Source: Isoetes taiwanensis (lineage: Eukaryota; Streptophyta; Lycopodiopsida; Isoetales; Isoetaceae). Taken from it: a stretch of DNA of 64,000 nucleotides. The notes under the pieces were generated by a model that worked only from the letters and a program-made list of their open reading frames with translations, had not been told where the DNA came from and ran no database searches. The translations under genes were made by a program, and so were the position numbers. The stretch covers positions 8,305,891 through 8,369,890 of the forward strand of contig JAJEKV010000035.1 of NCBI GenBank assembly GCA_021234155.1. Direction: 5' to 3'. Position 1 is the first letter of the stretch, and every line of letters begins with the position of its first letter. This document shows positions 1,701-43,826 of the stretch, piece by piece.

Positions 1701-4292
1701 CTAAAAAAGTAATCCTACAACCTGTGTTGTGGCACGCCTTGCTCTTTCAACATCATGGTAGAGCCTACAGCCACCAAGTAAAGTTGTCCAAATTGCCAAA
1801 GTAGGATCAAGTAAAAGATTAATAATGAAGTCTTCAGTTTCGTCCAGCCATCCTATTCTTCCAAGTAGGCTGAGTAAACAACCACAGTGTCCGATTGTCG
1901 GTAGCATGCCACAGTCGTGAGATATGGAGAGAAAGTAATTACAACTCTCATCTACTAGTTCTTTAAAAGTGCATGCCGCGAGAAAGTTGAGATAAGTAAC
2001 TGCATCTGGCATCATCCCCTGTCTTAGTAAATGCCAAAAAAGTTGAAGTGCCTCCTCAGTATCAGCATTCTGGCAGTATGCTCCAATCATAACATTCCAA
2101 CAAACAATACTACATGTCAAAGAATGAATAAATGCTTTTTGTGCATCTTTAACATTGCCACACTTGGCATACATGTTTATCACAGCACTGGTTACTGCAG
2201 GATTCAAGTCTAATCCACTGTGCAGCATTTGAGCATGTATCCATTTCCCCTCTGTTAATGCTGCTAAAGAGGCACATGCTTCAAGAGCACTAATCAAAGT
2301 GATTGCATGTGGTACAATGCCCTCCAATTGCATCTGCTGGAAAACTTCAAGTGCATATCTGTCATGACCATTCTCAGCACAGGCAACTACCATAGATGTC
2401 CAAGAAACCACATTATGTTGGACTCTAGTGTTAAATGTGAACCAGGCATCCTTTGTGGTACCGCATTTCCCGTACATGTTTACCAATGCACTAATAATGA
2501 CAACATCCAGCTCAGATTTGCTCCCTATGAAGAGTGCATGCGCCCATTTGCTTACATTTACATCTGCCATCACAGCACATGCATCCAATATGGCTAAAAA
2601 CGTGAGATGATTTGGCATCATACCTTCCAGCTGCATGTGCTCAAGAATCCAAAGTGCTTCTTTTACACACCTATTAAAAGAAAAAGCTGCAATTATTGTT
2701 GTCCATGAAGTTACATTGCGGTCAGACATCCCATTGAATACTCCCAGAGCCTCCTTCAGGTAACAACATTTTCCATACATGTCAACCAGGGCAGTGCCAA
2801 TAGCTACATCCATCATTAAACTGCAACTTAACAAGAAAGCATGCAACCTTTTCCCTTCCTCCAGATCCCTAAAACAGGCACATGCATCAAACATGGTCGT
2901 GAAGGTAATGTTATTTGGAAGCATGCCTTTAGCTTGCATTTCTTGAAACAGCTTTATAGCTTTCTCCTCTTCCTTAGTCTGGACATATGCAGCAATCATG
3001 ACATTCCATGTGACCACATTTTTCTTGGGCATTCTATCAAAGACAACCTTTGCATCTAGGGCACTACCGCACTTGCCATACATGTTAACGATAGCTGTCT
3101 CAACAATAATGTCGGGCACAATTCCACTACACAACCTGCAGGCATGTATCCATCGGCATTCCAAAAGATCTGCAAGACAAGCATAAGCATGAAGCATGCA
3201 TACAAATGATACATTATCCGGTTCCACGCCTTCCAGTTGCATTGCCTTGAACACCTGCATTGCATCCATTTTAACCAGGTTATCTGTACAAGCTGTCACC
3301 ATAATGTTCCAAGATATAACATTTCTTTTTACCATGTTCTGAAAAATAATGTAAACATTGTCTAAGTATTTACATTTAGTATACATATTGAGAAGAGCGT
3401 TTCCCACAATGATATATAGTTCATATCCTTCCTTTATAACATAAGCATGCATTCTCTTCCCTTCTTCCAAGTCTGACAGACCACCACATGCATTGATAAC
3501 GCTCACAAATGTCACCTTGCTTGTCTTCAATCCCTCCTCTTGCATTTGTATAAAAACATTAACAGCATCAACATTGTGCCCATTCTGAACATACGCTGCA
3601 AGCATGGCATTCCAGGAAACAATATCTCTTTCCTGCATCTCGTTGAAGAGTTTCTGTGCATCTTTTAGACTTCCACATTTGCCATACATTTCAACAAGAG
3701 CAGTTGCAACAATTATGTTTGATTCAAGCCCAAATGCCATAATGCACCTATGCATCTCTCTGCCACTTTCTAAACTCGCAGCCCCATTGAAAACAGCAAC
3801 AATTGTGCTAAAGGTGAACCTGTCTGGCTTCACGTCTTCCATGATCATACTATCAAACAAGTGAAGGGCATCCCGATCAAGTCCTAGTAGAACATATGCC
3901 CTAATCATAACATTCCATGCATAAATATCCTTTTCGGCCATTTGATTAAACACAACGTGAGCATGTTCCAATGACCCAGATTCTACATATAACTTCAAAA
4001 TAAGATATCTAAGCTGTATCTTCTGCCACCATTCAGGATGTTCTAAAATCTGAGAATGAACAAGCTTACCTCGGGGAAGAATTTTATTATTGGTACACCA
4101 TCGCAATAGCAATATAGTAGTATATGGTACTTCATGATCTGGCTCACGTTTCTGGGATATGTCCTTGTTTTGCAGTGTAAATTCCTTGCTTTTGCAACAT
4201 GGTACTCCAAATGAGACAGGCTGCATTGAGAAATTCTGATAATATTTGGCTCCTCCAGGGATGGATGTAACTGTAATGGCCATGGAGGGCAA
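1701..4292 (-). CDS. PLS-class pentatricopeptide repeat protein, intronless, lacking DYW domain
   Basis: 863 residues, a single uninterrupted ORF. From about residue 120 to 830 it is built of PPR units in P-L-S order, with repeated signatures such as NALLNMYTKCK, DIVSWNAMLAAYVQNG, and A-MYGKCG linkers recurring about every 100 residues (seven or eight P-L-S triplets). This is the architecture of organelle RNA-binding PPR proteins that usually specify C-to-U editing sites. The N-terminal ~60 residues are poor in acidic residues and could be a plastid or mitochondrial presequence, though not a textbook one. The C-terminus (IWTTLLGGCRLYHDVERA...) matches only the opening of an E1 motif and stops at TAG; no E2 or DYW deaminase follows. 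It may therefore need a partner deaminase in trans or be C-terminally shortened. The ATG at 4290-4292 starts the longest frame. The family call is near certain; the target transcript is unknown. Confidence 0.93.
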   Translation of the reverse strand: MPSMAITVTSIPGGAKYYQNFSMQPVSFGVPCCKSKEFTLQNKDISQKREPDHEVPYTTILLLRWCTNNKILPRGKLVHSQILEHPEWWQKIQLRYLILKLYVESGSLEHAHVVFNQMAEKDIYAWNVMIRAYVLLGLDRDALHLFDSMIMEDVKPDRFTFSTIVAVFNGAASLESGREMHRCIMAFGLESNIIVATALVEMYGKCGSLKDAQKLFNEMQERDIVSWNAMLAAYVQNGHNVDAVNVFIQMQEEGLKTSKVTFVSVINACGGLSDLEEGKRMHAYVIKEGYELYIIVGNALLNMYTKCKYLDNVYIIFQNMVKRNVISWNIMVTACTDNLVKMDAMQVFKAMQLEGVEPDNVSFVCMLHAYACLADLLECRWIHACRLCSGIVPDIIVETAIVNMYGKCGSALDAKVVFDRMPKKNVVTWNVMIAAYVQTKEEEKAIKLFQEMQAKGMLPNNITFTTMFDACACFRDLEEGKRLHAFLLSCSLMMDVAIGTALVDMYGKCCYLKEALGVFNGMSDRNVTSWTTIIAAFSFNRCVKEALWILEHMQLEGMMPNHLTFLAILDACAVMADVNVSKWAHALFIGSKSELDVVIISALVNMYGKCGTTKDAWFTFNTRVQHNVVSWTSMVVACAENGHDRYALEVFQQMQLEGIVPHAITLISALEACASLAALTEGKWIHAQMLHSGLDLNPAVTSAVINMYAKCGNVKDAQKAFIHSLTCSIVCWNVMIGAYCQNADTEEALQLFWHLLRQGMMPDAVTYLNFLAACTFKELVDESCNYFLSISHDCGMLPTIGHCGCLLSLLGRIGWLDETEDFIINLLLDPTLAIWTTLLGGCRLYHDVERARRATTQVVGLLF

Positions 4293-14226: not shown

Positions 14227-17200
14227 TAAGTATAAATGTTAGGCATACATATTAGTGTAAAAAGTTATGGCCCATGAATGTTATAAACCTTTGGGCAAGA
14301 TAGATAACCTGGGACCTAGATATGTAAGTTAAAACCAAATAGACGGCTGGGTTCCTTATAAGAATAATATTTAAGCTACTAGGGGACTTAATGTTTAACC
14401 CGAAACATTAGTATATGACCAAAGTAGTGACCCCTAAGGGGCTTAATACTTGTCGCCAAAATTAAAATAAGGTTTCTAGGGTTCTGAAAATCGAGGCAGG
14501 ATATCCGATACCAGAGATGGCAGGGATCGGATTGGTAAATAGCAGCCAACCAGTCTTTATGACCTCAAAAATCCCCCGCTAATTGGCATTACTGCAAATA
14601 TGGGAGGTAGTTCTGCAAGCGGAGGTGAAGGCTTTTGCTCTGACGAAGAGGAGCGGCTCTGTGAAAGCTTGAGAAGGGAACTTGCTTGGTGTGATAGGGA
14701 AGTGAGATTCAAGGCATTAGAAATGGAAAGGAGAGGCAGAGGCCGTGGCTTTGCACCTAAGAGAGGCTATGGTGATAGCAATACAGGGCAGCTGGCTAAA
14801 AGAAGCAGCGGTTTCAATAGACCACAAGGGGGCTATACTAGAGCAAATCCCAGCAATGAACACTTTGTTCCAGAAACACAACAAGACATGGATGGATCTT
14901 CAGATGAAGATGAACTTCAGGTAACAAAAAATAAGTCCCATTTCTATTAAGAGGTCAGATTAGATAAAAGATCATTGAGGCTTATGGTTTCCAAGTGATA
15001 CATGGCAGCTGCCTAAGGTTGGTCTAAATAAACAGATTAATTAACACTAGTTAAAGGAAAAGGATCCAGAGATAAGCACATAGATTGCATGCATTATTAT
15101 AATTATGCTACCAGGTCCTGCTATGAGGATATAGATCAGCTGGCAGTCCGGACCAGTTAACTAATAGCAAAATAAACCCTGTATTATCCCAGGTTTTCAA
15201 ATATCTATTTGCAGGCCAGATAACTTCGCAATGGACCTTAGTATCATATGTACTATTAATACACTGCCCAGGCATGCTGTGAGGATGTATAACAGCTAAT
15301 AGTCCAGGCCAAATAACTAATGTATAAACAGGCCTTGTATTGTTCCATGTTTTCAATATTTACTATTTGGCCAGATAACGGATATCTAAGTAGACCTGGT
15401 TTTATCCCTGATATTGTTACGATTTCAAGTCAGTATAAGATAGCTGATTAAAGCTGGTTTAAGAAAGTAGAATGTTTAACATTAACTGAAAGGAGAAGAT
15501 CCAAATGTTAACATAAAGATTGCAGGCCTTAGTATAAATATGCTGCAACAGCCTTGTATGATGATGTACTGCTGCAGCTGTTGTAAATAAATAACAGGTT
15601 TTCAGAACCAGTTACTCTTATCTTTATTATATGTTTGTCCAATATTTGTTTTCATTTTATCTGAGCTTGAACGAATCAAGGGCATAAAAGAGGTACAATG
15701 GGTGAAGGGCGAAGAGCCAAGAAATTCCCAATGTACCTTTTGGCCCTTGTATCGTTACCAAGCCTATTGCTAACGTTTACATGATTGGCTGCAGGTACGT
15801 GGAATTTCTTCTACTATTGTGCTTTCCTTTTTGCTGTTATGAGGAGTTCGGACTCAAAAGGATGAATGGAATCAAATATATGGACTTCACAAGAATCTCA
15901 AGTATGATAAGTAGGCAATTTTGTATATGCCAGGATAAGATGAAGGATAGGAGGAGTAATAGTGAAACTTCTGGTATTTGAAAGTCTTTATAACTATATA
16001 TCAAAAAGAAATTTTGATCTCGCAGATAGAGAAGTAGAAATGGGCAGATGGTAAAGTGCATGGCATGTATAGACATATTTTAACCTGCCATTGGCAACAT
16101 AATTTTGTTAAGTTCAAGACAGATTTCCAATATTTAAATACCGTTCTTCGTCGTTCCAGCATATTGTGCTTTAGTATTCTGCTCTAGTTTGACTTGGTTG
16201 GGTGAAAATGAAATGCACACTGGCTGTATCTATCTTTGGTTTCTGAACTGGTTTTTTAAAAAAAAAAAGTAACTCAGACTTCCTTGTAAAGATAATGCTG
16301 GACATGCTTAGGTTCAAGGGAGTCAAACTCTATCACACTTAATATTTAAGTTTAGGTATCGTTAAAGGCAAAGAACAGAAGTATAGGCCTGTTCAATTAA
16401 ATGTAAATATTGACTACTTAAAGTTAGCCATATATGGTAGAACAGAAAAATCGAGACTGGATATATATGAAAAAATAAGCATAGCATTTACTGAATGAGG
16501 GTGTATCACGAAGCCTTAAAATCGAAAAAGCTGGATACTTGGAAACATGACAATAAGAAAAATTAAAAAAGGAGTTAAGAATATGAAACGATACATGATT
16601 ATGGCAGGTTGTAAATTAAAAAAAAAGGCCTGTAAAGGGTTATGACATGTGGATAAGCATGCAAAAAGTTAAAGCTGACCCTTGTCGTCTTTGTTTCCTT
16701 TCCTTTTTTAAAAAAAAGAAAGTATGTGGTTGCATGGTCAAGTTTAAACAGACTCTTTAAGACTTTCCAAAAACATTGGACTTCAGCCATACGCCTGGTC
16801 CTAATAGCAGTTATACATGCATAAAGTAAAAGATCAAACATATGGGAGGACATGCTTAACATGGACTATAAAGGTAAAAAGTTGTAGAATAAGAAAGCAA
16901 AGATATTTTATCTATTTAAAGTTATAAAAATTGTATAGACCTGGATATGATGCACTATCTTTGTCCTAAGCTCAAGACAATGTATAGAATGATTAAACTA
17001 CTTAAGGATTGACTGCGGTAGTTTGATTGGCTAGAAGGATTGTTGTCCTGACTAGTTAAGTCCGGGTTTTTTTTAGATAATTCATTTCATTGGTCTTACC
17101 AGTGAGGCATCATATCTATTGGTAAAGATTTGAGCAAGTTGGAGATTATAGATATATACTTAAAGGACTGAATGTATGGTTGCAGGATGATGGTGAGACA

Positions 17201-18598: not shown

Positions 18599-18614
18599 TA
18601 AGTATAAATGTTAG
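14600..18614 (+). CDS. Unrecognised two-exon gene with an internal frame change
   Basis: Exon 1 (14600-14920, 107 codons) begins MGGSSASGGEGFCSDEEE, has an RGRGRG patch and an acidic end (DGSSDEDELQ), and stops at donor CAG|GTAACA. The intron ends TTGCAG at 17185. Exon 2 (from 17186) continues in frame (DDGETQTIEFVPP) to a stop at 17822-17824. A second frame, open from 17634 to 18614, carries on as a plausible protein from about 17790 (RLVEGHAMFCNQG) with Cys/His-containing stretches and a basic Ser-rich tail ending AKYKC. Joining the two needs a one-base change of frame near 17760-17800: an indel, a missed small intron or programmed frameshifting. The protein would be about 590 residues. I recognise no domain. 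Low-complexity acidic/RG regions and two overlapping frames could suit a Gag-like protein, but no reverse transcriptase or recombinase is linked to it. Confidence 0.55.
15719..15810. other. Conserved stem-loop in the intron, copy 1
   Basis: Arms AAGAAATTCC (15719-15728) and GGAATTTCTT (15801-15810) pair perfectly. A second helix GTACC/GGTAC (15733-15737 with 15794-15798) follows, then GCC/GGC. The loop side keeps TTTTGGCCCTTG and GGCTGCAG. See copies at 20092 and 30174, the latter with compensatory changes. Confidence 0.65.
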
Positions 18615-18971
18615 GCATACATATTAGTGTAAAAAGTTATGGCCCATGAATGTTATAAACCTTTGGGCAAGATAGATAACCTGGGACCTAGATATGTAAG
18701 TTAAAACCAAATAGACGGCTGGGTTCCTTATAAGAATAATATTTAAGCTACTAGGGGACTTAATGTTTAACCCGAAACATTAGTATATGACCAAAGTAGT
18801 GACCCCTAAGGGGCTTAGTACTTGTCGCCAAAATTAAAATAAGGTTTCTAGGGTTCTAAAAATCGAGGCAGGATATCCGATACCAGAGATGGCAGGGATC
18901 GGATTGGTAAATGGCAGCCAACCAGTCTTTATGACCACAAAAATCCCCCGCTAATTGGCATTACTGCAAAT

Positions 18972-19292
18972 ATGGGAGGTAGTTCTGCAAGCGGAGGTGA
19001 AGCTTTTTGCTCTGACGAAGAGGAGCGGCTTTGTGAAAGCTTGAGAAGGGAACTTGCTTGGTGTGATAGGGAAGTGAGATTCAAGGCATTAGAAATGGAA
19101 AGGAGAGGCAGAGGCCGTGGCTTTGCACCTAAGAGAGGCTATGGTGATAGCAATACAGGGCAGCTGGCTAAAAGGAGCAGCGGTTTCAATAGACCACAAG
19201 GTGGCTATACTAGAGCAAATCCCAGCAATGAACACTTTGTTCCAGAAACACAACAAGACATGGATGGATCTTCAGATGAAGATGAACTTCAG
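18972..19292 (+). pseudogene. Orphan gene copy 2, exon 1 only
   Basis: 107 codons, almost identical to exon 1 at 14600-14920, with the same donor (CAG|GTAACG). Its second exon is absent because the duplication unit is truncated by a retroelement at about 21433. Exon 1 stays fully open with mostly silent differences, which suggests either recent duplication or past constraint. Confidence 0.7.
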
Positions 19293-20091
19293 GTAACGAA
19301 AAATAAGTCCCATTTTTATTAAGAGGTCAGATTAGATAAAAGATCATTGAGGCTTATGGTTTCCAAGTGATACATGGCGGCTGCCTAAGGTTGGTCTAAA
19401 TAAACAGACTAATTAACACTAGTTAAAGAAAAGGATCTAGAGATAAGCACTTATATTGCATGCATTATTATAATTATGCTACCAGGTCCTGCTATGAGGA
19501 TATAGATCAGCTGGCAGTCCGGACCAGTTAACTAATAGCAAAATAAACCCTGTATTATCCCAGGTTTTCAGATATCTATTTGCAGGCCAGATAACTTCGC
19601 AATGGACCTTAGTATCATATGTACTATTAATGCACTGTCCAGGCATGCTGTGAGGATGTATAACAGCTAATAGTCCAGGCCAAATAACTAATGTATAAAC
19701 AGGCCTTGTATTGTTCTTTGTTTTCAAGATTGGATATTTGGCCAGATAACTGATATCTAAGTAGACCTAGTTTTATCCCTGATATTATTATGATTTTAAG
19801 TCAGTATAAGATAGCTGATTAAGGCTGGTTTAAGAAAGTAGAATGTTTAACATTAACTGAAAGGAGAAGATCCAAATGTTAGCATATAGATTGCAGGCCT
19901 TAGTATAAATATGTTGCACACTGGCCTTGTATGATGATGTACTGCTGCAACTGTTGTAAATAAATAACAGGTTTTCAGAACCACTTACTCTTAGCTTTAT
20001 TATATGTTTGTCCAATATTTGTTTTCATTTTATCTGAGCTTGAACGAATCAAGGGCAAAAAAGAGGTACAATGGGTGATGGGCGAAGAGCC

Positions 20092-20183
20092 AAGAAATTC
20101 CCAATGTACCTTTTGGCCCTTGTATCATTACCAAGCCTATTGCTAACGTTTACATGATTGGCTGCAGGTACGTGGAATTTCTT
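20092..20183. other. Conserved stem-loop in the intron, copy 2
   Basis: Same arms as copy 1 (AAGAAATTCC / GGAATTTCTT), with one loop substitution. Confidence 0.65.
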
Positions 20184-22064
20184 CTACTATTGTGCTTTCC
20201 TTTTTGCTGTTATGAGGAGTTCGAACTCAAAAGGATGAATGGAATCAAATATATGGACTTCACAAGAATCTCAAGTATGATAAGTAGGCAATTTTGTATA
20301 TGCCAGGATAAGATGAAGGATAGGAGGAGTAATAGCGAAACTTCTGGTATTTGAAAGTCTTTATAACTATATATCAAAAAGAAATTTTGATCTCGCAGAT
20401 AGAGAAGTAGAAATGAGCAGATGGTAAAGAGCATGGCATGAAAAGACATGTTTTATTGCTACATATTTTTGTCAAGTTCAAGACAGATTTCCAACATTTA
20501 AATATAGTTCTTCATGGTTCTAGCATATTGTGCTTTATTATTCTGCTCTAATTTGACTTGGTTGGCTGAAAATGAAATGCCTGCAACTGTATCTATGCTG
20601 GTTTCTGAACTGGTTTTTTTAAAAAAAGTAACTCAGACTTCCTTGTAAAGATAATGCTGGACATGCTTAGGTTCAAGGGAGTCAAACTCTATCACACTTA
20701 ATATTTAAGTTTAGGTATCGTTAAAGGCAAAGAACAGAAGTATAGGCCTGTTCAATTAAATGTAAATATTGACTACTTAAAGTTAGCCATATATGGTAGA
20801 ACAGAAAAATCGAGACTGGATATATATGAAAAAATAAGCATAGCATTTACTGAATGAGGGTGTATCTGAAGCCTTAAAATCCCAGAAAGCTGGATACACT
20901 GGAAACATGACAATAAGAAAATTAAAAAGGGAGTTAAGAATATGAAACGCATACATGATTATGGCAGGTTGTAAATTCAAAAAAAAGGCCTGTAAAGGGT
21001 TATGACATGTGGATAAGCATGCAAAAAGTTAAAGCTGACCCTTGTCGTCTTTGTTTCCTTTCCTTTAAAAAAAAAAAAAAAGTATGTGGTTGCATGGTCA
21101 AGTTTAAACAGACTCTTTAAGACTTTCCAAAAACATTGGACTTCAGCCATACGCCTGGTCCTAATAGCAGTTATACATGCATAAAGTAAAAGATCAAACA
21201 TATGGGAGGACATGCTTAACATGGACTATAAAGGTAAAAAGTTGTAGAATAAGAAAGCAAAGATATTTTATCTATTTAAAGTTATAAAAATTGTATAGCC
21301 CTGGATATGATGCACTATCTTTGTCCTAAGCTCAAGACAATGTATAGAATGATTAAACTACTTAAGGATTGACTGCGGTAGTTTGATTGATTGGCTAGAA
21401 GGATTGTTGTCCTGACTAGTTAAGTCCGGGTTTTTTTTTTTTATGCATGCCACATGTTGGAGTTTCTACATGTTGGCTTTTCCTACACGTTTGCTACATG
21501 ATGCCTTAGTAGCTGCCTATTGGCAATGACTGAACGATAGACTGAAGTAGAGTTTTGATGGGTGTCGCCCAAGGTCTCCTGGCAGCTCAAAATTAATGTA
21601 AAGAGGCATGTCTTACTAGCATTGTTCCTAGTGTGCATGTTACTGGTTGGCTAAGTGTTAAGCTTTTCCTAACTGTGCTCTGGCTACCTTTTCTTTTAAA
21701 AGAATTGGTTTTTCCTAATGTGCTTTGGCTACCTTTTCTTTTAAAAGAATTGGTTTTTCCTAATGTGCTCTGGCTATATGTCTTTGTTTCACACAAATAA
21801 GGCATATCTTCTAGAATGGCAAATTTCAATGGCTTGTTCACCACCTTACATAAGCAATAGGTTTCTGAATCTGACCCTAGGGTGAAGCGAATTTGCTTTA
21901 ATAATATCACAGTATAGAAGTTCCTTGAATGGGACTTATTATTGAAATTCATCGATTTCAATTTAATATTGGAATTCATGGAATTTACATGTGGTAGTAT
22001 TTTTCCCATATACTCTCCTTACCTTTTTCCTTGGCCGAAATTGGGCTTTCTTCTCGGTCTTTAT

Positions 22065-22132
22065 GTAGGGGGAAACTTTCGCCACCTGCAAATTTCCACC
22101 CGGAAACCGCCAGGTGGCGAAAGTTTCCCTAC
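22065..22132. repeat. Foldback (inverted repeat) at left end of the Crypton-like element
   Basis: Arm 22065-22088 begins GTAGGGGGAAACTTTCGCC. Arm 22111-22132 is its reverse complement except for two extra G. Both arms end in CGCCACCTG. The right end of the element lacks this foldback. Confidence 0.85.
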
Positions 22133-25100
22133 GTGGCCTACAGCCACCTAGAAATTCCCCCTGCCACGTCGGTAGGGGTATAAATATAATTTTTTTAATT
22201 CTTTAATGCCCTTTTTTTTTGGCCGGAACTTTTTTTTTTTGGCCGGAGCAGTGGAGGTCGGAGCTTTTTCGTTGGCGTTAGGGCGTCGGAGTCGGCGGTA
22301 GGGCGTCGGAGTGGCGCCAATCGAGGCGCCAGGATCTAAGCTTCGATGTCGTTTTCTTTTGATTTTTTTTTGTTTTTTTCTGTTTTCTTCATTAGTGATG
22401 TGATTATTGGTTTTCCTTGCAGGTTTTTATGTAGATCTGTTCCTGTGGAGTTGTTTTTGGCGGTAAATCTTCGGATTTAGTATTTGGATTTCTCTATTAT
22501 TTGTATTGGTAGTCGAGAGGCGTTTCTTGAGTTATTTGCGGTTGCATGCGGCTCTTTACGCAAGTGAAGGCGTTTTTGAGAGAAGATCGAGTTACGCAAA
22601 TTTTTTGTGGAAGTTTTAAGGTTTGGAACTTTGTTTTTTTTGTGTTTACTTATTTTGTATTTTTTGTTTATTAAAGCTTACATGCATTCTAACTTAAGTT
22701 TTTGTTTGTAGGTTGCAATGGTTGGTGTGTTAAACTTCTTGTCACGATTATCTTATCTAATTGTTACGTGTTTATTAGTACTTCCAAGCGGTATGGATGT
22801 GGAATGTCCGTCCTTTTCTATCTGAGTTCACGCTTTGCTCTTGGTCTTTGAAGAAGAGATAGGGATGTTGATCGGTTTACGGAAAATGGGAATCTTGTGA
22901 AATAGACAAGTTTATGGCGAAGTTGAGAAAGAAGAGTGGTATAAAGTTGATTTCGGGGATCGGTGAAAAAAGATCTGAGAGAAAGAGGTTGAGGATCCGA
23001 GGGTTCTTGCCTCTTGATCAAAATGAATGCATGATGTGTATCATGGAGGGAAAGATTGGTCTTCTAAGGCCACTAATTGGGCAAGGAAAAAGTTTGATCC
23101 TTGGGGGAATTGAGAAAGTTTGACATACGTTTCCAATTGAAGATGTTCCCTTGAGGAGATGAATGATATGTTGGTCATGTTCATGATCCAGGTGAAGAAA
23201 AACAATGGCAAAATGTTTCCTGCAAGCAGGTTAGTTACTTTGTTGTTAATTTTGTTTTTTAATTATTAGTTCTAACCTCTTTAATTGTTATTCTTGCAGC
23301 CTCAATAACCTGTTTAAGACTATTGGTCGAATCATAAGGAAGAAACAAGACATGATTATTGAGTAGACAGGAGTTGATAGGGAGAGGTTCAATATTTTAA
23401 GGCATCCAATCTTTGATAGGGCTTGCAAGGTGTTCATTGGTGCTGCAGAGCGTTCAAGACGTGCTGGTGTTGGAGCTGAGAAGAAGAAGACAACAGAAAT
23501 TAGTTTTAATGTGGAGCGCAAATTATTGGCAGATCGTGACCATCAAATTACCTTTAACACAGGTAAATTTCTTCTTTTATTTGTTATTTCTAGTTGTAGG
23601 CTAGTTTTTTTAGCTAGTTTTTAGCTAGTTTTTTCTAGTTTTAGTTTAATGTTTTAGGGTTATTACACTGTTATGAGATTGTTTTCAGGTTTATGATTTA
23701 CACTAATGTAATTTTTGTTTTATTTATAGGTTGTCAAAAAAGGCTGTGCTATTATATGGTTAGTAGGTTTGGAATCAGAGGTCATGCAGAGTTGCATGGG
23801 GTCCTCGATTGTGACATGAGTCTGCGGAATGATGAATTTGGAGAGTCTGTTCAGTACAGAGAACGCACATCAAAGAACTGGAATTGTAGTATCACTAGGT
23901 TTGATGATTCTCACTTCCGGCCTCCTATTTGGAGCTACGAAGCAGATTTTATTGAGACATACAAGCAGTATGTCCGACACTTGCCTGAAAAAGAGAATGA
24001 TATGCCACGACACTTCTTCTTGCAGACAATTCCTAATCCTCGATACAATGTAAGTTAATTACTATTATTTTCTTTAAATATTTTATTTTTTTTCTAATAT
24101 GTTTCTTGTTTTTTGCAGGTGTGGTATCAAAAGGTGCCTATGGGTGTCAATAAATTACGGACTTGGCTGCAAGCAATGGGGAGTCTTGTGAGTGATATCG
24201 AAATCACTAATAAGAGTGGTCGTGTTACTTTAGTTTCTAGGCTTTCGATGGCTGGAGTTCCACCAGAAGTTGGGATGTTGATCACTGGGCACAGGAAGGT
24301 CAAGTCTTATAGCAAGTAGTTTATATTTATTTGTTTTATGGTTTGTTTTTTCTTATTGCTAACAGTATTTCCTGCAGGTATGATAGGACAAAGGAAATGC
24401 AGGTTGATGCTGCAATGAGCATTCTGGCAGCTCCATATAATGAGGATGGAACTTTAAAAGTTTATAGCGATGTGTTACAGCAAGAGAAAACAAGAAAAAG
24501 CTCAATTATGTCAGCATTTAATGGTGGAGCAAGTTCTAGTAAAGGAATCAAGGATGCTACTAGTGAGAAAGTTGCAGGTGATCAAATTAAAACTTCTGAT
24601 AAGGTAATATATTTCTGTATTCCTTGATTTCATTGTAAAATTCCTTTAGTAACCATTTATTTAAACAGGTTGCTATGTCTGTTGTTCCTTCTATACCTGT
24701 TCCTTCAGTTTCTACAAATATGGATGTTGCTACTGTTGAAGATGTTCCGAATTCAGGAAGTATCACTGTAACAGGTTTGAAGCAGTTGGAAATAGACAAA
24801 TGAGGTTTGGGAAAAGTGCCTGAAGAATTGTCCTCAGTTAGAAGGTGGTAGCATGATTGCAAATTCTACAATGACTAATACAGGTGGTCAGTCTTTTATG
24901 GCGGCAACAAACAAGAATTGCGTGTTTCTGTCAATATCGATTGCGAATCCTTTACAGGCTGGACCGATTATTGAAAATGTGATGGCTTCAATTCCAAAAA
25001 TTTCTTGAAGATGTTTGATCTATCTTGGAGATCTGATAGTAACTGAACTTTGAAATGGGAAACTTGGAAATGTGAAACTTTTTGAAAATGTGAAACTTTT

Positions 25101-25301
25101 TTGTTGAAACTTTTTTGGAAATGTGAAACTTTTTTGAATTTAAGCTGTATTGAAAAATATTATTGTAATCTTATTGTATTGAAAAATTATGTGGTGGCGG
25201 CGCCACCAGACCGCCGCCAGAAATAAAACACTCGAAAACAGTTAAAAAAACCATGAAAAAACCTTAGCAGGTAATCTCAAGGAATTTCTAGGTGGTGTAG
25301 G
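22066..25301 (+). mobile_element. Crypton-like tyrosine-recombinase DNA transposon
   Basis: The uninterrupted site in copy B of element X (TCTTTATGAATGGCGG at about 33036-33051) defines this 3.2-kb insertion exactly. It is bounded by TTATG (22061-22065) and TTACG (25302-25306), a likely 5-bp direct repeat with one change. Its right end GGAATTTCTAGGTGGTGTAGG (25281-25301) is the inverse of CCTACAGCCACCTAGAAATT at 22137-22156 apart from one extra base, giving subterminal inverted repeats of about 21 bp. Between 22066 and 22136 lies an extra foldback. The body encodes a multi-exon tyrosine recombinase (separate entry) and a TATA-like TATAAATATAA at about 22180. Classical Cryptons lack terminal inverted repeats, so the end structure is unusual. 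Confidence 0.75.
23036..24803 (+). pseudogene. Crypton/DUF3504-type tyrosine recombinase, intron-containing, decayed
   Basis: Exons readable from conserved reading and GT-AG borders: ~23036-23229, 23300-23562, 23730-24049, 24119-24315, 24378-24603, 24669-24803. The N-terminal part carries the SAM-like core-binding region (ATNWARKKFDPW, then EEMNDMLVMFMIQV). The catalytic part has FGIRGHAEL (catalytic Arg, codon 23777-23779), TNKSGRVT (second Arg at 24221-24223, with Lys where the first His of HxxR is usual), TGHRKV (His at 24290-24292) and SYSKYDR with the likely nucleophilic Tyr at 24379-24381, split by an intron just before it. This layout is that of Crypton/KIAA1958-type DUF3504 recombinases. 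Damage: an in-frame TAG at 23363-23365 (IIE*TGVDR), a frameshift near 23148, stops before that, and a frameshift at the C-terminal end (about 24800) beyond which the frame stays readable to ~25008. The copy is inactive as read. Confidence 0.8.
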
Positions 25302-25333
25302 TTACGAATGGCGGATGCTGCTGGCCGATTAAC

Positions 25334-25729
25334 CTAGGCAGGGATCTGATGGGTTCTGCCCAAGAGATATGATGGGTTCTGCCCAAGAGATGGGCATAAG
25401 ATGTAGTAGGGCAAAGCATGGCTACGGCAAACGATGCTAGCATTCTGTCTATGGGTCTTCACAGCAGTGCTATTTCTCAGAGCTTTAGAAAAGGGGCAAA
25501 CAGAGCTATGGCAGCCGGCCAATGCCAATAAATAGAAGCTCTGATCTTCAATATTGAGCTTTATATCACAAACAAGGCATACATTTTGCAAGCAGATATG
25601 GCTTTTTGTATGCATTCTGCTTTGGAAGACTTGTTTTGCAACATGGATAGCAGTCTTTGATAGTTTGGAGTGGCCGCCATCTGCAAAAAAGAGTGTTTGT
25701 GAAGCAATAGCCAAGGAGATTCGTCCCAA
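25334..25729 (-). CDS. Hypothetical ORF within element X
   Basis: 131 residues, rich in Cys, His and Ser, with a segment CLQNVCLVCDIKLN that has paired cysteines. It spans the part of X unique to copy A and the part shared with copy B. No family recognised. It may be untranslated or non-coding sequence of a retrocopied transcript. Confidence 0.2.
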   Translation of the reverse strand: MGRISLAIASQTLFFADGGHSKLSKTAIHVAKQVFQSRMHTKSHICLQNVCLVCDIKLNIEDQSFYLLALAGCHSSVCPFSKALRNSTAVKTHRQNASIVCRSHALPYYILCPSLGQNPSYLLGRTHQIPA

Positions 25730-26320: not shown

Positions 26321-26581
26321 TGCGTTAATAGTTTTTTTTTTGTTGAAGGACGTCAGACTTTATTCAATCAAAGAGTCAAATACAAGTATAAATGCAGAGA
26401 CAGAAGCAGAGACCCACCGAGTGAAGCAACCTGCCTAAGCATAAGAGTGCACATCCAAATACTCCTCAAAAATCAATCGCCTCTTGCGAGGGGCAAGTGA
26501 AGAACAATGATACGACTTTACAATGTAACCTTGAGCTTCTTGGAGAACACGATTATCTACGCCACATCGGACCTTTGAAGA

Positions 26582-27318
26582 TTACCAATCTTCGGTCTTT
26601 TTCGAGATAGTCCAAAGCAACCATCCTGGCGCTAGATGAAAAGCCCGGCCTTGTAACTCTGTCCGGTACTTGGGTAAATTGCCAAAAGCGGTTGTTGACT
26701 TGTTAGTGAAACCCCAAAAAGGGAAAACAACCAGTCCCATACATCTAAGGTGTTCACATGAAAAAGCAATGCTCAATGGTCTCGGACCACGCTTTGCATC
26801 TTGGACACCGATTTGAGATTCTAGGGTTAAACTTATGGACAAGCACATTAACCCGCAGACACCTATGAAGAATCGCCACCAAAGAAGCGCCACTTTAGGA
26901 TGAAGTAGCTTGTCCCATGCCCAAGACCACACCTTACGCCATTGAAGAGGAGGAAGTTGAAGAGACCACTTATTAGACGGAGGAAGAATATCGATATCAA
27001 GCAACAAGCGATACATAGAGTTCACAAGTTTGCACTCCTTAATTTCTTCATGACAAACCCATACCAAAATATCTTCTTGGTGTGGCGAGAATAGGCTGTA
27101 GAAAATCAGTAACTTTTTGCCAAAGAACTCTATCCCATCGCCCCAATAGAAACTTTTAGCGAAAAAGCCTCCCATGTCGACCAACTGGCCTGAGTCATAC
27201 CATCTTTGCAATAGTTAAGATTCCAGCACTTTTCCAACGTCTTTGAGTCAATGGGTGCTTTGTAAAAGCAAAGTGGTTGATTGTCTACCGGAGGGATCCA
27301 CCAACAAGGTGCAATCAA
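26582..27318 (-). pseudogene. LINE ORF2 C-terminal part (zf-RVT region)
   Basis: Frame 27211-26582 contains KVWSWAWDKLLHPKVALLWW and a Gly/Trp-rich end typical of the region after the reverse transcriptase in plant LINEs. It is preceded in another frame (27318-27130) by KTLEKCWNLNYCKDG. The terminal Cys-rich knuckle is degraded. Confidence 0.75.
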
Positions 27319-32408: not shown

Positions 32409-33236
32409 GGTTTTTTTTATGCATGCCACATGTTGGAGTTTCTACATGTTGGCTTTTCCTACACGTTTGCTACATGATGCCTTAGTAGCTGCCTATTGGC
32501 AATGACTGAACGATAGACTGAAGTAGAGTTTTGATGGGTGTCGCCCAAGGTCTCCTGGCAGCTCAAAATTAATGTAAAGAGGCATGTCTTACTAGCATTG
32601 TTCCTAGTGTGCATGTTACTGGTTGGCTAAGTGTTAAGCTTTTCCTAACTGTGCTCTGGCTACCTTTTCTTTTAAAAGAATTGGTTTTTCCTAATGTGCT
32701 CTGGCTACCTTTTCTTTTAAAAGAATTGGTTTTTCCTAATGTGCTCTGGCTATATGTCTTTGTTTCACACAAATAAGGCATACCTTCTAGAATGGCAAAT
32801 TTCAATGGCTTGTTCACCACCTTACATAAGCAACAGGTTTCTGAATCTGACCCTAGGGTGAAGCGAATTTGCTTTAATAATATCACAGTATAGAAGTTCC
32901 TTGAATGGGACTTATTATTGAAATTCATCGATTTCAATTTAATATTGGAATTCATGGAATTTACATGTGGTAGTATTTTTCCCATATACTCTCCTTACCT
33001 TTTTCCTTGGCCGAAATTGGGCTTTCTTCTCGGTCTTTATGAATGGCGGATGCTGCTGGCCGATTAACCTAGGCAGGGATCTGATGGGTTCTGCCCAAGA
33101 GATATGATGGGTTCTGCCCAAGAGATGGGCATAAGATGTAGTAGGGCAAAGCATGGCTACGGCAAACGATGCTAGCATTCTGTCTATGGGTCTTCACAAC
33201 AGTGCTATTTCTCAGAGCTTTAGCAAAAGGGGCACA
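32409..33236 (-). mobile_element. Retroelement X, copy B (uninterrupted)
   Basis: Begins with T8 and ATGCATGCCACATG, matching copy A at 21434, and runs without a break across the site where copy A holds the Crypton-like element. It ends near 33236 where the two copies part. It includes the 138-residue minus ORF (32985-32569) with two 45-bp tandem units, nearly identical to copy A. Confidence 0.85.
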
Positions 33237-42698: not shown

Positions 42699-43826
42699 TG
42701 TTGACCGGGTTTTTTGCACCCGGTCAACATGAAAAAAGAGAAAAGAAATAACCATTGGAAGGGGGGGTCGATTATAAAGCCCAAATATTGTAAAGGTCTA
42801 AGGCACCAAAAAATAAAAAAGGGCCTAGATCTAGTTATTTAAATTTAAGGGCTTCTAAGATTTTTTAATGGTTGAAGAGGGGTACATTATCTAAGGCTAA
42901 GATGAAGAGGCAAGATCAAAGGTGGAGATTAAAAAAGGCAAAAATTAAAGGTTGAGATAAAGAGGCAAGATCAAGGGTGGAGATGAAGGGGTCAAAATTA
43001 AAGGTTGAGATGAAGAGGCAAGGTCAAAGGTGGAGATTAAGAGGCAAAAATGAAAGGTTAAGATGAAAAGTAATGTTTATAAAAGATTCTTGAGAGCACG
43101 AGCTCCTCCTCTTGCCTTGCTCCAAGTTCTTGGGGATGGTGGCAGCTCCTCCTCGAACTGGATCAATGGCCCCTCCATGGTTCAGAGACATGGAGGGACC
43201 CTCTTGTATTTGAAGTTCTATGCTTATATAAAATTTCTTTTGTGAACACCTTAGACAGGTATGGGATTGGTTGTTTTCCCTTTTTCAGGTTTCACTAACA
43301 AGTCAACAACTGCTTTTGGCAATTTACCCAAGTACCTGGACAGAGTTACAAGGCCAGGCTTTTCATCTAGCAGCAGGATGGTTGCTTTGGACTATCTGGA
43401 AAAGACGAAGATTGGTAATCTTCAAAGGTCTGGATGTGGCAGATAATCGTGTTCTCCAAGAAGCTCAAGGTTACATGGTAAAGTCATTATCATTGTTCTT
43501 CACTTGCCCCCTTAAGAGGCGATTGATTTTGAGGTATTTGGATGTGCACTCTTATGCTTAGGCGGGTTGCTTCACTTTCGGTGGGTCTCTGCTTATCCGG
43601 CTGAGATTTTATTCTGTCTCTGCATTTATACTTGTATTTGACTCTTTGATTGAATAAAGTCGGCGTCCTTCAACCAAAAAAAAAAAAAAAAAAAAAAATC
43701 TTTTGGGCCCAAAGTTATTCTTCAAGTTTTTCTTCAAATCCCTCGATTTTATATTGCGGCACTCAATGTGATCCGATTTACGCCTTTGAGGCCACTGTTG
43801 GGGATTGTGGGAAAAATCCGCCAACA
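42699..43826 (+). repeat. 5' LTR, interrupted by a LINE tail
   Basis: Matches 45466-46129 once 43243-43698 and one 7-bp target copy are removed. It contains three imperfect ~60-bp units (GATGAAGAGGCAAGATCAA type) between about 42899 and 43065, and a TATA-like CTTATATAAAA near 43222. Confidence 0.93.
43243..43698 (+). mobile_element. LINE 3' tail inserted in the 5' LTR
   Basis: Bounded by the 7-bp repeat TCTTTTG (43236-43242 and 43699-43705), with about 23 A at the right end. The sequence is the reverse complement of the 3' part of the LINE at 26334-30041 and still encodes the GLVVFPF-GFTNKSTTAFGN segment. The intact 3' LTR gives the empty site. Confidence 0.95.

Follow-up and report, generated by a model that had tools for sequence, protein, structure and literature searches.

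A tyrosine recombinase transposon family without a reverse transcriptase in Isoetes taiwanensis carries its own joined ends as an internal reverse complement

The stretch of Isoetes taiwanensis DNA analysed here (64,000 nucleotides; the window) contains, at 22066-25301, what the original prediction described as a Crypton-like tyrosine recombinase (YR) transposon with introns, separated from DIRS elements by the lack of a linked reverse transcriptase (RT). The locus raises the question of what kind of YR element resides in this land plant and how it moves. Cryptons have been reported in fungi, animals, oomycetes and a diatom (PMC3212892; PMC8969392). A 2022 review of land-plant transposons omits DIRS elements, being known from green algae alone, and says nothing of Cryptons (PMC9033089), and a 2020 review has none described in Arabidopsis (PMC7385966). 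In a limited literature search, we found no papers on Cryptons in land plants or on Cryptons and Isoetes together.

The recombinase gene of the window copy is made up of the following exons:

23027..23229 (about), + strand: decayed N-terminal (core-binding) exon with frameshifts and stops, located by tblastn against intact relatives
23300..23562, + strand: YR exon with one in-frame TAG
23730..24049, + strand: YR exon with the catalytic Arg (FGIRG)
24119..24315, + strand: YR exon with the NKSGR and TGHRK boxes
24378..24603, + strand: YR exon containing the candidate nucleophile region (YSK/YDR, spanning the splice junction)
24669..24803, + strand: last coding exon, with a TGA stop at 24801-24803

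All five introns (23230-23299, 23563-23729, 24050-24118, 24316-24377 and 24604-24668) have GT-AG borders, and both these and the exons at 23300-24603 had been positioned correctly in the original prediction, which nevertheless has to be corrected in that this copy's gene is broken, by the TAG in the exon beginning at 23300 and by the N-terminal frameshifts and stops. The suggested comparison of the joined exons with Pfam DUF3504 did give a match (E 1.5e-4, 22.3 bits), yet one under the curated cut-off of 29.7 bits; relatives within the family score 15-21 bits or nothing against that cut-off, and two distant relatives pass it (33.4 and 31.0 bits). PHROG "integrase" profiles matched the catalytic C-terminal part in six of seven members (best E 2.4e-5), and Pfam Phage_integrase matched one member (E 0.015). 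The catalytic set consists of the Arg in FGIRG, the Lys/Arg-x-x-Arg in NKSGR, the His in TGH and the Tyr in SY.KYDR; R176, (K/R)xxR, H323 and Y329/Y332 are retained in nearly all alignment rows, a single row (L031) having Cys in place of the second catalytic Arg. Where the HxxR box usually begins with His, this family has Lys or Arg (NKSGR/NRSGR). Profile matches and catalytic residues together place the predicted protein in the tyrosine recombinase superfamily and identify the gene as one for a putative YR/DUF3504-type recombinase. The tyrosine recombinase reading is confirmed by this evidence, and the absence of any YR profile match, which had been named as grounds for giving it up, is not what we found, given the PHROG integrase matches in relatives.

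A protein search of the genome returned >200 matches, many at 48-63% identity, and many matches in this identity range lack the intron at 23563-23729 while retaining the others. The relatives of the window copy have open exons. Recombinase exon dN/dS was 0.04-0.07 among L003, L005 and L007 and 0.18 for the pair L025/L032; these close-pair values indicate that the exon is under strong purifying selection in the relatives. Searches of solved structures with the recombinase, by sequence and by profile, gave no meaningful match, scans of IMG/VR and GTDB returned no relatives, and an Rfam scan of the window from 20 to 28 kb gave no match. The distant relatives L001 (G000:C31) and L002 (G000:C606), which lie above the DUF3504 cut-off, spell their motifs SNKTLR...TGHKR and read as another YR subfamily of this genome, one of deeper divergence. 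Two relatives of ~40% identity (G000:C1037:4904838-4905641 and C1049:1144648-1145451) have a catalytic region without stops or intron, unlike the transposon copies, and are candidates for domesticated genes or for another subfamily.

We searched the Isoetes taiwanensis assembly (1,658,258,908 bases in 1110 contigs) with the element itself and found ~20 near-full-length copies that are 80-92% identical to it and share its sharp ends, along with shortened copies in which only query positions 1-422 and about 3077-3247 are left. The presence of many copies in a land plant was thereby confirmed, and the shared ends and empty sites place the true bounds at 22065-25305, a few bases from those predicted. 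The ends, fixed by ~25 copies, read GTAGGGGGAAAC... at the left and ...GGTGGTGTAGGTTAC at the right, and target sequence adjoins the element as TTTAT on its left side and as G on its right. Its parts are as follows:

22065..25305, + strand: whole element, GTAGGGGG...GGTTAC, with sharp ends common to ~25 copies and an empty site in the window
22065..22088, + strand: A, left terminal arm, GTAGGGGGAAACTTTCGCCACCTG
22089..22110, + strand: loop separating A from A'
22111..22132, + strand: A', reverse complement of A and left half of the internal complementary region
22133..22136, + strand: internal-copy core, GTGG (read on the opposite strand, CCAC; the right-end core is TTAC)
22137..22158, + strand: B', reverse complement of the right terminus and right half of the internal complementary region
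25281..25301, + strand: B, right terminal arm, GGAATTTCTAGGTGGTGTAGG
25302..25306, + strand: right core TTAC^G, near-invariant across copies

The element is 3.24 kb long and the YR is its sole encoded product: it contains no second long open reading frame beyond the YR, and neither RT nor RNase H is present in the full-length copies of ~3.2 kb, so that their coding content bears out the predicted lack of a linked RT. A search for a methyltransferase (Dam) domain gave no match in the whole genome, the E. coli control being positive. As possible RT cargo we considered insertions of 3.4 kb (L043/L054) and 4.7 kb (L047/L057) at the same intron position, and rejected them as unrelated nested DNA because their ends and content differ; the outer stretches of the L043 and L047 extra DNA, which were read, contained no RT-like long open reading frame. 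The L043/L054 insertion (C1035:4225761-4229187) lies in the element's intron 4, has GGTTGCAAATTAAACGGGAG-like inverted ends and carries a PPR-like coding fragment; it may be a gene-capturing transposon. The introns of the recombinase gene argue against a spliced RNA intermediate, an unspliced one remaining compatible with them.

The termini have far more structure than the original prediction described, namely a left hairpin and an internal copy of the joined ends, the latter having been missed. A' lies directly inside the left arm A and is followed by B', and in every copy with intact ends the order is A-A'B'-gene-B, A'B' being the reverse complement of the joined B.A. On the opposite strand, A'B' of the window copy reads GGAATTTCTAGGTGGCTGTAGGCCACGTAGGGAAACTTTCGCCACCTG, which nearly matches a direct joining of the right end to the left (GGAATTTCTAGGTGGTGTAGGTTAC.GTAGGGGGAAACTTTCGCCACCTG). 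In the M subfamily (L030/L031) the ends have no obvious sequence in common with those of W, the subfamily of the window copy, yet the design is the same, with TTAGGGGTAATGTTCGGGCGTAGGCCATTACGCGGGG, its reverse complement and AAATGTTAGGGGTAGGCCACATTTC at the left and GAAATGTGGCCTACCCTAACATTTCG at the right end. In all, five subfamilies with differing terminal sequences (W, M, L032, L029 and L007) retain the internal copy. For L029 the right end was predicted from the internal copy and then found in newly fetched DNA, with 27 of 27 positions complementary. Local match scores of B' with B were 18-27, compared to maxima of 11-12 for mononucleotide-shuffled left regions. Internally deleted copies of ~1 kb retain the ends and the internal copy. 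In the L003 and L026 subfamilies we did not find the fold-back ends.

The internal copy also changes together with the ends. Among 14 W copies, pairing is kept in 98.2% of cells, and five pairs are double-changed in 21 cells, a number reached in none of 500 shuffles; sliding the pairing drops it to 32-50%. Nine M copies are paired in 96.1% of cells and have 14 double-changed cells (0/500 shuffles), and in this subfamily four adjacent pairs have been swapped together, e.g., GCGT to CCAG along with the partner. The count of double-changed pairs taken alone was within the shuffle range (43/500 and 112/500). Because the copies were chosen by arm patterns, those with damaged ends are under-represented, and the shuffles ignore relatedness; the slid controls and the independent subfamilies are free of this weakness. 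We conclude that each element has, beside its left end, its own joined ends in reverse-complement form, and that this copy co-varies with the ends. The core is an exception: in W the internal copy has CCAC and the right end TTAC, so the internal copy does not template the core itself.

To define the target, the flanks of 31 copies were joined by script and empty sites were then searched. Comparison of 13 insertions with 20 empty relatives showed nearly all to be exact at the junction and the rest to be off by a base or two. One empty site lies in the window itself:

32411..33234, + strand: empty target copy in which the insertion point reads TTTATG; identity to 21435-22065 and 25302-25498 is 99.5% and 98.5%

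The empty copy reads ...GGTCTTTATGAATGG... and the filled copy ...GGTCTTTAT[GTAGGGG...GGTTAC]GAATGG..., a single G being all that is shared at both sides, with no duplication or loss of target. Insertion is thus clean, at T/A-rich-Y^G, and neither duplicates nor removes target DNA. The two target versions of the window copy differ by ~0.7%, which makes this insertion recent despite the broken gene, and the window copy was most likely mobilised in trans; alternatively, this filled and empty pair could reflect a precise excision from the second copy. One shortened copy (L065, G000:C952:14179120-14180290) has a left flank that repeats its right flank, including an empty-site-like GTATG, and may be the product of either aberrant integration or incomplete excision.

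The two junctions differ in what they retain. At the left junction the core bases are those of the target, and at the right junction they are the element's own near-constant core, TTAC^G in W and TTTC^G in M. At the second position ahead of the cut, W insertions have A in 10 cases out of 15 and M insertions have T in 13 out of 15, so that the target preference of each subfamily agrees with its own right core. The ~24-nt loop between A and A' is in the normal orientation in 13 of 21 W copies, inverted in three and doubled, with both orientations present, in four (one copy was unassigned). These variants record either fold-back copying or the inversion of the segment between two oppositely oriented att sites, and in either case the left hairpin seems to form or recombine in vivo. 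As single-stranded DNA the left end is predicted to fold very stably on either strand (z -9.3 and -8.7). Loop inversions, together with a constant right core beside a target-derived left core, suggest to us a strand-biased or single-stranded circular intermediate.

The surroundings of the element in the window contain further repeats. Just upstream, 14227-17074 and 18599-21438 form a direct duplication of 2.85 kb with 96.3% identity. On the reverse strand, 26582-27214 is an open frame of 210 aa that by eye resembles the C-terminal part of a plant LINE, and 26332-26758 recurs inverted at 43241-43685 with 88.5% identity. Elsewhere, the LEAFY C-terminal domain matches at 28 places in the genome, many of them short or with stops; compared with the typical one or two genes, this looks like dispersed LEAFY fragments.

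The account that we think probable, although by no means assured, is that of an RT-free, intron-bearing YR family whose members form a splinted one-strand circle and then integrate by short core homology. The YR would join the two ends of one strand, on which A would pair with A' and B with B', the internal copy acting as a splint. This splint would lay the 3' end (B) against the 5' end (A) on a continuous complementary strand and so form a complete att site, which the YR would close; the closed circle would be made double-stranded and would recombine with a genomic T/A-rich-Y^G site by short core homology. Broken and shortened copies, including that in the window, would be mobilised in trans. 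A constant right core beside a target-derived left core fits the inheritance of one strand, although selection acting on the core, or repair of a double-stranded heteroduplex from one side only, could also keep the right core invariant. A similar splint-like model has been proposed for the ends of DIRS1 (PMC3266345), and SE-6945 of Vibrio provides a precedent for strand-biased circularisation by a YR element (PMC9345347).

The same structures can be read in other ways. The element could be moved as double-stranded DNA, by Crypton-style cut-and-paste through a circle, with the inverted internal copy serving as a second att site that is either an accessory binding site or an inverter of the A-loop-A' segment. 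In the yeast 2-micron plasmid, to which such an internal att site may be likened, an inverted FRT pair raises copy number. The inverted copy is indeed a nearly complete att site, exact loop inversions are expected between two inverted att sites, target duplication is absent, and the filled and empty pair in one window also fits precise excision. However, the inverted sites are merely ~70 bp apart, the internal core of W differs from the end core, the doubled loops resemble fold-back copying, and random resolution of a double-stranded circle should transfer left cores to right ends, a spread that the copies do not show; we regard this reading as unlikely. It is also conceivable, but improbable in our judgment, that the family derives from a DIRS-type element that lost its RT and now depends for its movement on an RT supplied in trans, with the internal copy as the inherited DIRS internal complementary region. 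The architecture matches the DIRS1-like order lTer-lICR-rICR-rTer, without target duplication (PMC3266345), but all near-full-length copies found are YR-only and ~3.2 kb across families diverged to ~50% amino-acid identity, no Dam-type methyltransferase was found in the genome, the introns are kept, the internal copy is on the 5' side whereas that of DIRS is on the 3' side, and DIRS elements are not known in land plants (PMC9033089).

We give very little credence to the left palindrome being a replication hairpin, at which the folded 3' end of the lower strand would self-prime in a parvovirus-like manner and the YR would open the turnaround. Flipped and doubled loops agree with this, as does the high stability of the left-end fold whichever strand is taken (z about -9), but the hairpin reading leaves B', a copy of the far end, unexplained, a nickase and a polymerase are absent, and integration is clean and of the YR type, without duplication. 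That the family is an artefact of assembly or a contamination is scarcely credible: nothing beyond the fragmentation of the assembly (1110 contigs) speaks for it, whereas copies occur on dozens of contigs, the longest of tens of megabases, and are nested among other repeats, LEAFY is found in the same assembly, and there are many filled and empty pairs.

Neither named class accommodates the element fully. "Crypton-like" holds for the mechanism: as in Cryptons, a YR is the only clear enzyme and there is no RT, the Isoetes family is ~3 kb long, and its catalytic half is DUF3504-like; an insect Crypton, too, has a derivative that is non-autonomous (PMC3212892). The term does not hold for the termini. 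Published Cryptons have short direct repeats at their ends, without terminal inverted or long repeats (PMC3212892, PMC8969392), whereas the Isoetes family has structured ends, with a 24-nt left hairpin arm and the A'B' copy of both ends; in place of a 4-6 bp terminal direct repeat only G is common to all, the left core being target-derived and not part of identical direct repeats. The host is a land plant, and there are hundreds of recombinase matches, compared with the mostly low copy number of Cryptons. The predicted separation from DIRS likewise stands for coding content and fails for terminal architecture, since a DIRS-type internal complementary region is present. DIRS1-like elements have this region on the 3' side and encode RT, RNase H and a methyltransferase (PMC3266345). 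The Isoetes family shares with them the internal reverse complement of the joined left and right ends, matching both termini in five subfamilies, and insertion without target-site duplication; it differs in encoding no RT, RNase H or Dam methyltransferase, in having the copy on the 5' side, adjoining A, and in that the W ends form no long shared inverted terminal repeat. Ngaro, PAT and VIPER elements combine a YR with split direct repeats, in which the joined ends recur internally as one contiguous copy, but their copy is direct and accompanied by RT, whereas the Isoetes copy is inverted and RT is absent. As described in the part of PMC9345347 used here, SE-6945 and SE-6283 of Vibrio are YR elements with a variable spacer adjoining a conserved end and a one-strand circle; they are bacterial and have two recombinases and two other genes, and that part of the paper mentions no internal complementary region for them. 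Because the element works like a Crypton with DIRS-type ends, we file it as a formal member of neither.

We tentatively entertain the possibility that the family represents an undescribed RT-free YR lineage in which the DIRS-type internal complementary region is already present. Explanations of the odd internal repeats in DIRS elements have so far placed them within the retrotransposition cycle. YR retrotransposons themselves are thought to have come from a Crypton-like element and a Gypsy-like RT (PMC6681497). An RT-free family with an internal complementary region uncouples that region from RT and makes the family a possible, and testable, intermediate between two kinds of transposon. If this is true, the splint architecture needs no reverse transcription, such elements may be mobile in the form of single-stranded DNA circles, and they may represent the DNA stage from which DIRS arose by capture of an RT. 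The finding would put YR transposons in a vascular land plant, and the many young insertions with matching empty sites provide material for studies of target choice.
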